Assembly (NCBI GenBank): GCA_022508265.1
Contig: JAFLVP010000016.1
Span: 1 to 39,536, forward strand
DNA length: 39,536 bases
Source: Clostridiales bacterium
Lineage (GTDB): Bacteria; Bacillota; Clostridia; Christensenellales; Borkfalkiaceae
Direction of reading: 5' to 3'
Each line of letters starts with the position of its first letter. The stretch's first letter is position 1. Below are positions 23,344-39,239 of the stretch, in pieces. Under the pieces are notes generated by a model. The model worked only from the letters and a program-made list of their open reading frames with translations. It was not told the origin of the DNA and ran no database searches. Position numbers and translations under genes: made by a program.

Positions 23344-23609
23344 CTGTGCAGTCTCCGTTGCCGAAACAGACCGAAGCGTAAACTTTACAGGTAACTCCTA
23401 CAAAGCATCCTTATGGCACACCGACGGGGCTGTTTAGTGCTGCTATATCCCTATCCTGACACGGTTCGCAGCTGTCGGTTGCATAAGACCTTGTAATCAA
23501 CATCCCTTATAAAGCGCAGCCTTCCATCTGCGTCGTCGAAGGAGACAATTCGGTCCTGCTATAGCGGTTTGCAGGTACAGGGCACCGCTAACTCCCCACT
23601 TAGCACAGC
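23344..23609 (-). ncRNA. ffs: Signal recognition particle RNA, large Gram-positive type
   Basis: RNA scaffold of SRP, which with Ffh targets nascent membrane and secreted proteins. On the minus strand the 5' part carries the Alu-domain signature (GTGCTAAGTGGGGAG, then GCGGTGCCCTGTACCTGC) as in Bacillus scRNA. Domain IV reads GTCAGG-ATA-GGGA-TAT-AGCAGC, a GNRA-type GGGA tetraloop (23451-23448) on a three-pair stem above the conserved asymmetric loop. The ends pair: GCTGTGC at the 5' end with GCACAG at the 3' end. About 266 nt, close to the Bacillus length. Ends are inferred from pairing and promoter position. Confidence 0.94.
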
Positions 23610-37290: not shown

Positions 37291-38025
37291 TTACGTGAGT
37301 ACAATTGCGTGCTTATGGCACGGTAAAGTTTGAATTTGCGGTCGGCATTGCTTTTGCATTTTTTCAAGCTGCTCGATGTAGTTTTCCGCTCTGTGTGAAT
37401 CAATAGGACCGTATTTCGCGTTTTTGCCGATATGTATCAAATTTCCGACGTGCCTGAACCCGAAGATAGCAGGGGGGAGATGAGTAACGATATCCTTGCA
37501 ATTTCTGATAACGTAAAAGTGTTTAAACCGTTCGGAAATCTTGCGTTTAAGACGCCCGTGTACGACGCGCGGACAGCCGAACCCGTATCCGAAAATATTA
37601 TTTGCTATGTCGGCGCGGTGGAATACACAGAACTCATAGCAAAGCAGAGCAAGCGCCGCGCCGTGCGAATATCCCACAATTACAATTCCTTTCACTTTTT
37701 TATTGCAAATCGGACCTTTAAGATATTCTCTCGCAGATTTCCAGACACGCAAAAAGCCGCGGTGGACGTGCCACGTGTTTTCCATATCTTTGTAAGCCTT
37801 TGATGGGAAATCAAAATTATTGCGCCAGTCGACTATTCCGTTGCTGTGCTCAAAAAAGATATACAAAACGTTCCCTCTCATTTCGGAAAAGAAAGACGCA
37901 TCGGTTTTGGGTAGTGTTGTATATTTTACGTTCAGCACTTGTTTAAATAAATCAAGCAAGTTTTCTTGCAATTTTATTCTCCCTTGACAAAATGACTCCG
38001 TGGCATTATATTCAAATATGCTCAT
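37291..38025 (-). CDS. Class 3 lipase-like alpha/beta hydrolase
   Basis: 244 aa. The Lipase_3 pattern is clear: VHRGFLRVWKSA before the active site, nucleophile elbow GYSHG with S120, catalytic Asp D178 in NCKDIVTHLPP and catalytic His H211 in SHRAE. No signal peptide, so a cytosolic or lysis-released enzyme is likely. I chose the Met at 38025; the longer frame from 38127 would run through a terminator hairpin. A CATACAAT lies 14 nt before the start. It sits just beyond the tRNA-Tyr cassette array and may be accessory. The substrate is unknown. Confidence 0.85.
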   Translation of the reverse strand: MSIFEYNATESFCQGRIKLQENLLDLFKQVLNVKYTTLPKTDASFFSEMRGNVLYIFFEHSNGIVDWRNNFDFPSKAYKDMENTWHVHRGFLRVWKSAREYLKGPICNKKVKGIVIVGYSHGAALALLCYEFCVFHRADIANNIFGYGFGCPRVVHGRLKRKISERFKHFYVIRNCKDIVTHLPPAIFGFRHVGNLIHIGKNAKYGPIDSHRAENYIEQLEKMQKQCRPQIQTLPCHKHAIVLT

Positions 38026-38064
38026 CTTTTGTGCGAAAAATTGTATGATTACTTTACAGCATAA

Positions 38065-38094
38065 AAAAAGGACAGGTAAAAACCTGTCCTTTTT
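38065..38094. terminator. Junction hairpin J3
   Basis: AAAAAGGACAGGT/ACCTGTCCTTTTT with an AAAA loop, followed on the plus strand by CGTGGTGGAGCAG. The stem and flank copy the hairpin at the tRNA-Tyr 3' end (39117-39157). Confidence 0.88.
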
Positions 38095-38142
38095 CGTGGT
38101 GGAGCAGTAAATATCAAAATTGTACAATTTGTTTAATTTCTT

Positions 38143-38391
38143 TTAAAAAATATCTTTTTCAGGTTTTATCTGAACATACTTTCCAAGATTAATTCCTTTA
38201 CTAACTTCTCTGTTATATGATTCATATAGTCCAGATTCTTGAATTATATTAGCAATCTTAAAATTTCTATTCACAATAATATCTCCATATTTAATGCCGA
38301 ATAAATGAATCATTAAAACTCGCTCATTGTTAGGTGCATTATCATACATATCCCGCAAAATTTGCCCCAAACTTTTTTCTGAATAAATCAT
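38143..38391 (-). CDS. Small HTH-like domain protein
   Basis: 82 aa, AT-rich coding sequence unlike most of the window. The blocks LGQILRDMYDNAPNNERVLMIHLFGIKYGD and YNREVSKGINLGKYVQIK resemble a small HTH-like family often seen near restriction and other defence genes; that association is from memory and not shown here. GGAGG lies 6 nt before the ATG. It lies between structured repeat R2 and junction hairpin J3, forming one unit of the tRNA-Tyr array. Confidence 0.75.
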   Translation of the reverse strand: MIYSEKSLGQILRDMYDNAPNNERVLMIHLFGIKYGDIIVNRNFKIANIIQESGLYESYNREVSKGINLGKYVQIKPEKDIF

Positions 38392-38484
38392 TTTAACCCT
38401 CCAAAAAATAATTTGCTACATAAATGATAAACAATAATTTACTGTTGTCAAGTATAATATCAATATTTTGAAATATTCATTTAG

Positions 38485-38581
38485 GGGAGGAGGTGGATAT
38501 TGCCGTTTCCCGCAAGCGGGAGCCTCGGCAAACCTTCGTGCTACGCGCTCAGTCGAACAGTGGTTCGAACGCCGAACTCCA
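38485..38581 (-). repeat. Structured repeat R2 with a tRNA-Tyr tail copy
   Basis: About 97 bp. Its plus-strand left end GGGAGGAGGTGGAT (38485-38498) is identical to 14 bp of the tRNA-Tyr 3' end. It shares a 24-bp left block and a 22-bp right block with R1 (39020-39114), with a variable centre. Hairpins: TTGCCG/CGGCAA enclosing CCCGC/GCGGG, and TCGAAC/GTTCGA. GGAGTTCGGC and GCCGAGGCTCC can also pair. Confidence 0.82.
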
Positions 38582-38588
38582 AAACGCA

Positions 38589-38618
38589 AAAAGTAGCACC
38601 CATAAGGGTGCTACTTTT
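38589..38618. terminator. Junction hairpin J2
   Basis: AAAAGTAGCACCC/GGGTGCTACTTTT with an ATAA loop, followed by CGTGGGGGAGCAG, the same flank as J3 and similar to the tRNA-Tyr tail flank. The stem sequence differs from J1 and J3. Confidence 0.85.
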
Positions 38619-38651
38619 CGTGGGGGAGCAGTGATAGTCTAAAACGAACTA

Positions 38652-38909
38652 TTATATTTTTAAAGCTCTATTCTTAAAATAGTCGGAATAATTACACCCA
38701 CAAGCTTTGCACTTATTACATATAAACCAACCGCATTTGGGGCATTTTTTGTTTGATCCTTCGTCTAAAATTTCGCGACAGCTGTAACATCCTGTTATAC
38801 GTCCGGTGTCCAAATTATTTAAATATTTTCCGCTACAAACAGAACAAATTTCGCCTTCATTTTCAACGTAATTCAACTCACATTTTATGCACTTGAATAG
38901 GTTTGCCAT
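38652..38909 (-). CDS. Small multi-CxxC zinc-ribbon protein
   Basis: 85 aa with six Cys pairs or near pairs: CIKC, CSVC, CYSC, CPKC, CNKC and CGC. It probably folds as two or three zinc ribbons. Basic residues are common and there is no membrane segment. I chose the Met at 38909 because GGAG lies 6 nt upstream; the GTG further upstream is part of that site. The gene is AT-rich and sits between repeat R1 and junction J2 as one unit of the tRNA-Tyr array. Function not recognised. Confidence 0.75.
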   Translation of the reverse strand: MANLFKCIKCELNYVENEGEICSVCSGKYLNNLDTGRITGCYSCREILDEGSNKKCPKCGWFICNKCKACGCNYSDYFKNRALKI

Positions 38910-39019
38910 ATTATTCTCCACAATTAAATATATGTTTGTGTCGTATTATAGGCTTTGTTTTACTATTTGTCAAGGAAAATATTAGTGCTGTCAAATGCAG
39001 TAATTTCATTTTTAATAGT

Positions 39020-39114
39020 AGGAGGTGGATATTGCCGTTTCCCAAAGGGAGCCCTCGGCAAAGCTTCGCACATTACGGTGCTCGCGCGAACTGTGGTTCG
39101 AACGCCGAACTCCA
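39020..39114 (-). repeat. Structured repeat R1 with a tRNA-Tyr tail copy
   Basis: About 95 bp, starting with AGGAGGTGGAT (11 bp of the tRNA-Tyr tail). It shares left and right blocks with R2. Hairpins: TTGCCG/CGGCAA around CCC/GGG, and CGAAC/GTTCG. It lies just downstream of tRNA-Tyr on the minus strand. Confidence 0.82.
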
Positions 39115-39116
39115 TT

Positions 39117-39157
39117 CCACGAAAAAGGACAGGTACAAAACCTGTCCTTTTTCGTGG
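39117..39157. terminator. Junction hairpin J1, at the tRNA-Tyr 3' end
   Basis: A perfect 18-bp stem (39117-39134 with 39140-39157), loop ACAAA, containing A5 and T5. The right arm includes the CCA of tRNA-Tyr. The arms match J3 almost exactly. Confidence 0.9.
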
Positions 39158-39239
39158 TGGGAGGAGGTGGATTCGAACCACCGAAGTCGGAGACGTCAGA
39201 TTTACAGTCTGATGCATTTGGCCACTCTGCAATCCGCCC
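39155..39239 (-). tRNA. tRNA-Tyr (GTA)
   Basis: 85 nt with a long variable arm and encoded CCA. Anticodon stem TCAGA/TCTGA encloses CTGTAAA, giving GTA. T arm GGTGG-TTCGAAT-CCACC. The acceptor GGGCGGA against TCCTCCC leaves a C4-U69 mismatch, unusual for a working tRNA. Its 3' tail is copied in R1 and R2. Confidence 0.94.

Follow-up and report, generated by a model that had tools for sequence, protein, structure and literature searches.

Tandem one-gene units behind tRNA-Tyr in a gut clostridium: candidate non-autonomous cassettes with serine-recombinase att ends

Behind the 3′ end of a tRNA-Tyr gene, the window (the whole stretch of 39,536 nucleotides analysed here) carries two tandem units with one small gene each. 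This array is real, and it is one case of a wider pattern in uncultured gut Clostridia. With moderate confidence, we read it as two integrative cassettes in tandem, non-autonomous and with a single gene each, that have att ends of the serine-recombinase type and are seated at the tRNA-Tyr 3′ end. We observed the architecture of the array, the linkage of such units to tRNA genes, the copies of the tRNA's own tail within them, the shared ends around unrelated genes, and, at tRNA-Ala, a serine recombinase flanked by these ends as well.

Architecture of the array behind tRNA-Tyr

On the minus strand the array runs from tRNA-Tyr through J1, R1, ORF1, J2, R2 and ORF2 to J3 (Table 1), and all of these parts lie where a preliminary description of the window had placed them. 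The match that it had drawn between the stem and flank of J3 and those of J1 is a 24-nt exact direct repeat common to both hairpins with their flanks (39160-39137 and 38102-38079), which is why J3 is considered the putative original tRNA-Tyr terminator. The tRNA-tail copy in R1 and the 14-bp tail copy in R2 were likewise both found, and the two repeats share a 24-nt exact stretch, which includes the tail copy, and a 46-nt stretch that is 80% identical. The unit lengths, given earlier as 536 and 522 bp, were about right and come to roughly 534 bp (J1 to J2) and 524 bp (J2 to J3) when recomputed as hairpin spacings. The junction sequences are CTCCCACCACGAAAA at the tRNA, then CTCCCCCACGAAAA and CTCCACCACGAAAA. 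Each ORF is preceded by a tail copy that breaks off at CTCC, and what is left of the tail, (A/C)CCACG, comes after the ORF together with a hairpin; the ORF thus sits within a tail copy.

Table 1. Parts of the array behind tRNA-Tyr, in window coordinates
Feature	Position	Strand	Remarks
tRNA-Tyr (gta)	39155..39239	-	ARAGORN
tRNA-Tyr 3′ end, CTCCC/ACCA	39163-39155	-	putative primary insertion site; left ends of related elements abut such a CCA elsewhere
J1, terminator-like hairpin, left edge of cassette unit 1	39117..39157	-	18-bp perfect stem
R1, X core, two-hairpin repeat	39024..39096	-	80.7 bits with X covariance model
Partial inverted T-arm copy TTCGAACCAC upstream of R1	39102-39093	-	
Tail copy 1, ATCCACCTCCT	39017..39030	-	equals tRNA-Tyr tail from T-loop onward
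Cassette 1 promoter-like TTGACA - 17 nt - TATAAT	38945..38973	-	by eye
ORF1, 85 aa, cysteine-rich, zinc-ribbon-like cargo	38652..38909	-	ATG 38909, stop 38652
Cassette 1 right end, ATAGTTCGTTTTAGACTATCACTGCTCCCCCACG	38619..38652	-	30.6 bits, right-end matrix
J2, terminator-like hairpin, left edge of cassette unit 2	38589..38618	-	13-bp stem
R2, X core	38492..38563	-	67.5 bits; TTCGAACCAC (inverted T-arm) precedes R2 too
Tail copy 2, ATCCACCTCCTCCC	38485..38498	-	14 nt identical to tRNA-Tyr tail
ORF2, 82 aa, HTH_73 protein, cargo	38143..38391	-	Pfam PF24718, E 6e-27
Cassette 2 right end, ATTGTACAATTTTGATATTTACTGCTCCACCACG, weak	38095..38128	-	11.9 bits, right-end matrix
J3, hairpin	38065..38094	-	13-bp stem; putative original tRNA-Tyr terminator, shifted downstream

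The segment from J1 to R1 has a DNA fold with z = -7.7, and none of 200 shuffles was as stable, a result much of which the perfect J1 stem explains. The left part of unit 1 recurs in the same genome behind tRNA-Ala (contig C4), where it occurs with a rhomboid gene and has 89 of 104 aligned columns identical; the first 42 of these columns, from the J1 edge on, match the left edge of that tRNA-Ala's second unit exactly. As for the cargo, ORF2 had been called HTH-like and does match an HTH family of Pfam, whereas the zinc ribbons proposed for ORF1 are reflected in its cysteine-rich sequence but not in any Pfam family above the cut-off (best E 0.028). The array is followed by a gene for a class 3 lipase (Lipase_3, E 3e-19; window 37291-38127, minus strand), of which no relative was found in the other fetched tRNA-Tyr loci. 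A bacterial large SRP RNA lies at window 23344-23608 on the minus strand (Rfam RF01854, 188.5 bits).

The structured repeat and the copies of the tRNA tail

Both R1 and R2 contain a two-hairpin core, X, which was aligned from 19 copies and used to build a covariance model; R1 (E 6e-21) and R2 (E 3e-17) score highly with this model and are themselves among its 19 training sequences. With a structure set by hand for the covariation test, 87.4% of cells pair, compared with 78.0% in shuffles and 31.8-45.2% in slid controls, and 29 cells carry changes on both sides, compared with 11.3 in shuffles; the number of pair types was equalled in 37 of 500 shuffles. No Rfam family matches R1 or R2 at the gathering score, and the possibility that R is a known RNA was dropped on that ground.

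X is found at E ≤ 0.01 in 73 of 93 genomes of the genus, the window's genome counted. In the latter, all 13 matches at E ≤ 0.05 lie behind a tRNA 3′ end and on the same strand, three of the tRNAs being cut by contig ends and recognised by eye; ten matches are first units and three are second tandem units (second Tyr, second Arg and second Ala). When contigs, nearly all from assemblies of uncultured Clostridia, were chosen by the X core pattern alone, 21 of 88 cores among the matches listed lay within 400 nt after a tRNA, the chance level being 0.97% of strand positions. The other 67 have no tRNA in view within 400 nt upstream, so that most copies of X seen outside the window's genome are not tRNA-linked. 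Thus the tie between repeats and tRNA genes that had been proposed earlier is complete in the window's genome but does not extend to the majority of the listed contigs from other genomes. Similarly, the proposed alternation of repeats with single ORFs holds in the window, but many tRNA-linked X units are without an ORF; tandem units made up of R only also exist. The X core occurs, in addition, in several dispersed intergenic repeat families of other genomes, away from tRNA genes (TGTCATTCTGAGCGAG.. and ..GCGCAAATTCACC..; L021, L022, L036, L027 and many of L061-L138).

Tail copies were scored in a pool enriched for X, in which 49 of 293 distinct cores lie at most 160 nt behind a tRNA and 47 were scorable, by taking the best of seven 14-nt frames after X against the tail of the core's own tRNA. 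The own tail fitted at 11 or more of 14 positions in 28 of the 47 tRNA-linked cores, a level that dissimilar tails of other tRNAs reach in 0.03% of comparisons, and it was strictly the best tail in 31; the earlier expectation that tail copies match the neighbouring tRNA was therefore borne out. An inverted tRNA copy before X was strong (16 of 17) in 5 of the 47 cores, and its standing as a constant feature of X units was weakened, since the own tRNA was strictly best in only 9. At three loci (L039, L195 and L204), an extra 5′ half of a tRNA carries X within its T-loop (GGTTCG-X-A(A/T)TCC) and shortly precedes a second copy of tRNA-Thr or tRNA-Arg, which in L039 is truncated by the contig end. 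Structured inserts of other, longer kinds, ending in ..AAGGCGC(G/A)AATCC, replace X between tail copies at L304:150-300, L019, L032 and L184.

Ends, cargo and recombinases in related genomes

The preliminary description had suggested one-gene cassettes at a tRNA end, and this much stands, but R1 and R2 were dropped as conserved cassette ends once a right-end motif of about 30 nt was found just after each ORF. The conserved right end is TTCGTTTTAGGTTACTACTnCTCC followed directly by ACCA. A search with TTTAGGTTACTACTGCTCCACCA, three mismatches being allowed, located it at 18 places in 16 of 93 genomes, with none for the reversed-pattern control, and a shorter pattern gave 53 places in 35 genomes, with 10 in 9 for its control. 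An ORF ends immediately before the right end in 15 of the 18 places; of the other three, one is a tail copy that follows X, one lies a short way after a tRNA cluster, and one is at a contig end. With a matrix made from 30 right-end-like sequences, loci of the window's genome excluded, only two sites in the 39.5-kb window exceed 3 bits, namely the ends of ORF1 (30.6 bits) and ORF2 (11.9 bits), and the best score in 60 Markov windows was 16.7 bits (median 6.5). The ORF1 end, which lies above that best score, is thus secure, and the ORF2 end, which lies below it, is assigned partly by its position.

The left end, (A)AGCAACCTAAAACGAA, is nearly an inverted repeat of the right end, has the look of a terminator-like hairpin by eye, and abuts the intact CCA of tRNA-Ala or tRNA-Tyr in several genomes; in the window, a left-end matrix gives no convincing match to this canonical form. 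Six elements have both ends and measure 623, 677, 1006, 1092, 1714 and 5436 bp. The 1714-bp element (G004, contig C8) has no tRNA in view, and two of the six have degenerate right ends. No recombinase is present among the scanned ORFs of the five smaller elements (0.6-1.7 kb, all in relatives), which gave a bacterial PH domain; DUF3592; a zinc ribbon; no domain; and an inositol monophosphatase beside an ORF with none. The exact right end was found in no viral contig. A separate motif, TCAAGCACCCGCCA, stands before cassette genes or near recombinases (L006:440, L343:84, L345:252, L361:869, L447, L453 and others) and is possibly a replication origin; it is extended by an AGTGCCA-like sequence in 13 of 20 distinct hits and is absent from the window. 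Its reversed 14-mer gave 14 hits, which were not made distinct, and the short core alone did not go beyond the control.

The genes ahead of the right ends are mostly unrelated and include those for RNase III, ketopantoate reductase (PanE), a glyoxalase, a zinc-ribbon protein and an SDH-type protease; several have no family, some cargo falling in no Pfam family, and two (L344 and L345) are relatives by eye. Relatives of ORF1 occur in 19 of 92 other genomes, four at E ≤ 4.5e-8. Two of their sites lie after tRNA-Thr and a terminator without X, one has no tRNA in view, and one relative is flanked by repeated copies of tail plus terminator, next to a tRNA-Leu-like tail; these varied settings are suggestive only, and we did not accept them as proof of transfer. 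ORF2 has no relative at E ≤ 0.001 in the 92 other genomes of the genus. The same repeats with the same ORFs in all relatives, which the preliminary description had named as evidence against its proposal, is thus not what these genomes hold.

The content behind tRNA-Tyr varies between species, as that description had anticipated. X is present at E ≤ 0.01 in 26 of 56 tRNA-Tyr or Tyr-like loci (fetched stretches of up to 4 kb, some genomes being counted twice). One neighbour gene, seen at eight tRNA-Tyr loci, lies 0.9-2.6 kb behind the locus start (the tRNA-Tyr start), and the genes in between differ in part, although a 217-aa protein is common to three of the eight loci. The compared relatives are different species, and an empty site from the same strain was not found; the genomes used include metagenome assemblies.

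The largest two-ended element, of 5.4 kb and located at tRNA-Ala (G081), has genes for two proteins: one of 502 aa, in which Resolvase, Recombinase and zinc-ribbon domains are combined, and a 300-aa REP_ORF2-G2P (Rep-like) protein. In G021, a recombinase fragment cut by the contig end lies behind the same left end, also at tRNA-Ala, and is 96% identical to the G081 protein over 403 aa. The window's genome, the assembly of which is 94% complete, has three PF07508 matches: two of these proteins are at most about 31% identical to the compared recombinases, among the best hits listed, and the third has no match to them at 1e-10. The fetched stretches around the 30 top-scoring PF07508 loci of the genus, 4 of which have a tRNA, lack the end motif in every case; these top serine recombinases were accordingly rejected as the matching enzyme, and it is G081 and G021 that link the ends to a serine recombinase. 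Another 20 PF07508 regions comprise 18 from relatives (lengths near 490 aa) and two from the window's genome. Four have a tRNA: G104 (Glu) and G036 (Ser) have it beside the recombinase, G086 (Ser) about 1.1 kb away and G103 (Lys) several kb away. In G103, G110, G034 and G036, a terminator comes after the interval with the recombinase, and then an X-like unit and a tail-like copy. Three tRNA-linked recombinases of the genus best match the XisF, CcrB and CcrA models, all under the cut-offs and far under those for Ccr.

The G081 recombinase was confirmed in no viral contig; its relatives show less than 60% identity in 784 of 785 phage records and in all 556 plasmid records, the one remaining phage record falling at 60-80%. 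Small gut phage contigs, unannotated and 4-13 kb long (MT837257, MT837820 and others), carry relatives at about 40% identity. At L451:5146, the gene for a 485-aa serine recombinase runs right up to a sequence resembling 5S rRNA, which is perhaps another RNA-gene target.

The preliminary description had pointed to a tyrosine recombinase elsewhere in the genome. Two are present (PF00589, a family found in 20 of 21 genomes searched), and they score best with the XerC/XerD and XerS models, all under the cut-offs; with the integron-integrase model TIGR02249 they reach 106.7 and 59.6 bits, the cut-off being 265. Ten tyrosine-recombinase loci, viewed over about 1.5 kb, contain neither a tRNA nor the end motif. 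A tyrosine recombinase was rejected as the mover because none of these loci is linked to the ends and the pair in the window's genome is Xer-like by best score, and the recombinase of the complete element is of the serine type. A Y1 transposase (PF01797; 6 of 21 genomes positive) was rejected as well, because none was found in the window's genome.

A possible mechanism, its rivals and known systems

In the model that we favor, each unit extends over about 530 bp from CC/ACCA to CC/ACCA and consists of a terminator hairpin, an inverted T-arm, X, a tail copy, a promoter with the ORF, and a right end closing in ...CTCC. Insertion at the ACCA end would leave the tRNA intact: the incoming left end would supply the tRNA with a terminator, and the old CCA with its terminator would end up behind the cargo gene. 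The cassette ends would be att-type ends of a family whose complete member has a large serine recombinase and a Rep-like protein. Having kept an end and lost the recombinase and Rep-like genes, the cassettes would have to be moved in trans, like CIMEs or pseudo-SCC. R units would add copies of the tRNA tail, CCA and terminator, which may act as extra landing sites, and the ORFs lie inside R-unit tail copies, split at CTCC. Recombinase action, the crossover point, mobilization in trans and the role of the R units are the parts of this model that we infer. A broader version, which we put forward tentatively and regard as rather doubtful, is genome-wide gene capture in uncultured Clostridia with an integron-like function, in which trans-acting serine recombinases would insert one-gene cassettes behind many tRNAs at once, CC/ACCA would be the entry point, and R-unit tail copies would serve as additional landing sites, letting arrays grow without breaking the tRNA.

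The dispersed copies of the X core in other genomes, the Y1 transposases in some of them and the R-only tandem units would also fit a palindromic repeat of the REP or MITE kind that became established behind tRNAs. The ORFs would then be genes with no connection to it, brought by drift to a hotspot next to the tRNA, and the tail copies would have arisen by slippage or gene conversion. We consider this unlikely: the window's genome has no detected Y1 transposase and only tRNA-linked X matches, and the account leaves unexplained why genes of different kinds have a right end in common, why the left end at the CCA is its inverse, and why a serine recombinase lies between such ends. That last observation also weighs against islands of tyrosine integrases, in which the R-unit block from T-loop to CCA would be a classic tRNA att core and the cassettes eroded island ends. 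The tRNA copies of many such islands start in the T-loop, as the tail copies do here, and tyrosine recombinases are nearly ubiquitous in the genomes searched; however, their ten fetched loci showed no link to tRNAs or to the end motif, and we judge this origin improbable.

An integron-like system, in which a tyrosine recombinase recombines the folded, attC-like R1 and R2 with a tRNA-borne attI, would account for the alternation of ORF and structured repeat, for the foldable R with its covarying stems and for the diverse cargo. Yet the conserved junction lies at the right end of the ORF and not in R, and, as the preliminary description had recognised, no attC core is apparent: 38001-39180 contains one RYYYAAC and one GTTRRRY per strand, more than 500 nt apart and unpaired. 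Together with the low integron-integrase scores of the tyrosine recombinases, these features make such a system very improbable. If the cassettes move as the favored model proposes, they would represent a second bacterial way of collecting single genes, based on tRNA ends and a serine recombinase as opposed to attI/attC and IntI. To our knowledge, large serine recombinases are seldom found at tRNA genes, and the collection of single genes at tRNA ends is little known; recombinases directed to the tRNA end would, as a family, have a further appeal as a tool.

Among known systems, SCC and pseudo-SCC elements use a serine recombinase (Ccr), insert at the 3′ end of a conserved gene (rlmH) that is left intact, have inverted repeats at their ends, form tandem composites and include members without ccr genes. 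The units described here and their relatives may be alike in using a serine recombinase, in inserting at a 3′ end so that the gene stays intact, in inverted-repeat ends, in tandem arrangement and in recombinase-less members; a recombinase is present in the G081 element, partial in that of G021 and absent from the window's cassettes, and of the two ends the window shows right ends only. In contrast to SCC, the target is the 3′ end of tRNAs, the cassettes hold one gene in about 0.5-1 kb, and the R units carry the tRNA's own tail; neither the rlmH site nor ccrA/B/C genes of SCC proper were seen. CIMEs have cargo between att sites, no recombinase and a need for recombination in trans, a design that the cassettes may share, to judge from the five smaller two-ended elements of relatives; the window itself has right ends only. 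Known CIMEs are larger and derive from ICEs with tyrosine integrases, and they differ from these one-gene cassettes in that respect. Tycheposons and other tRNA-linked islands share the tRNA hotspot with remnant elements and cargo, and they have tyrosine recombinases and are longer. The X core is similar to REP and MITE sequences as a short two-hairpin repeat that is dispersed in some relatives, but its copies in the window's genome lie behind tRNAs, the tail of the respective tRNA often being repeated after them, and the Y1 transposase associated with REP sequences was not detected there. Integron cassettes, finally, are similar in having one gene per unit, one orientation, a tandem array and varied cargo, whereas here the unit contains a promoter-like sequence, the conserved end is distinct from the folded repeat, and neither an IntI-type recombinase in the 94%-complete genome nor paired attC cores in the array were found. 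On the best reading of these comparisons, the cassettes would work like pseudo-SCC or CIMEs and not like integrons.
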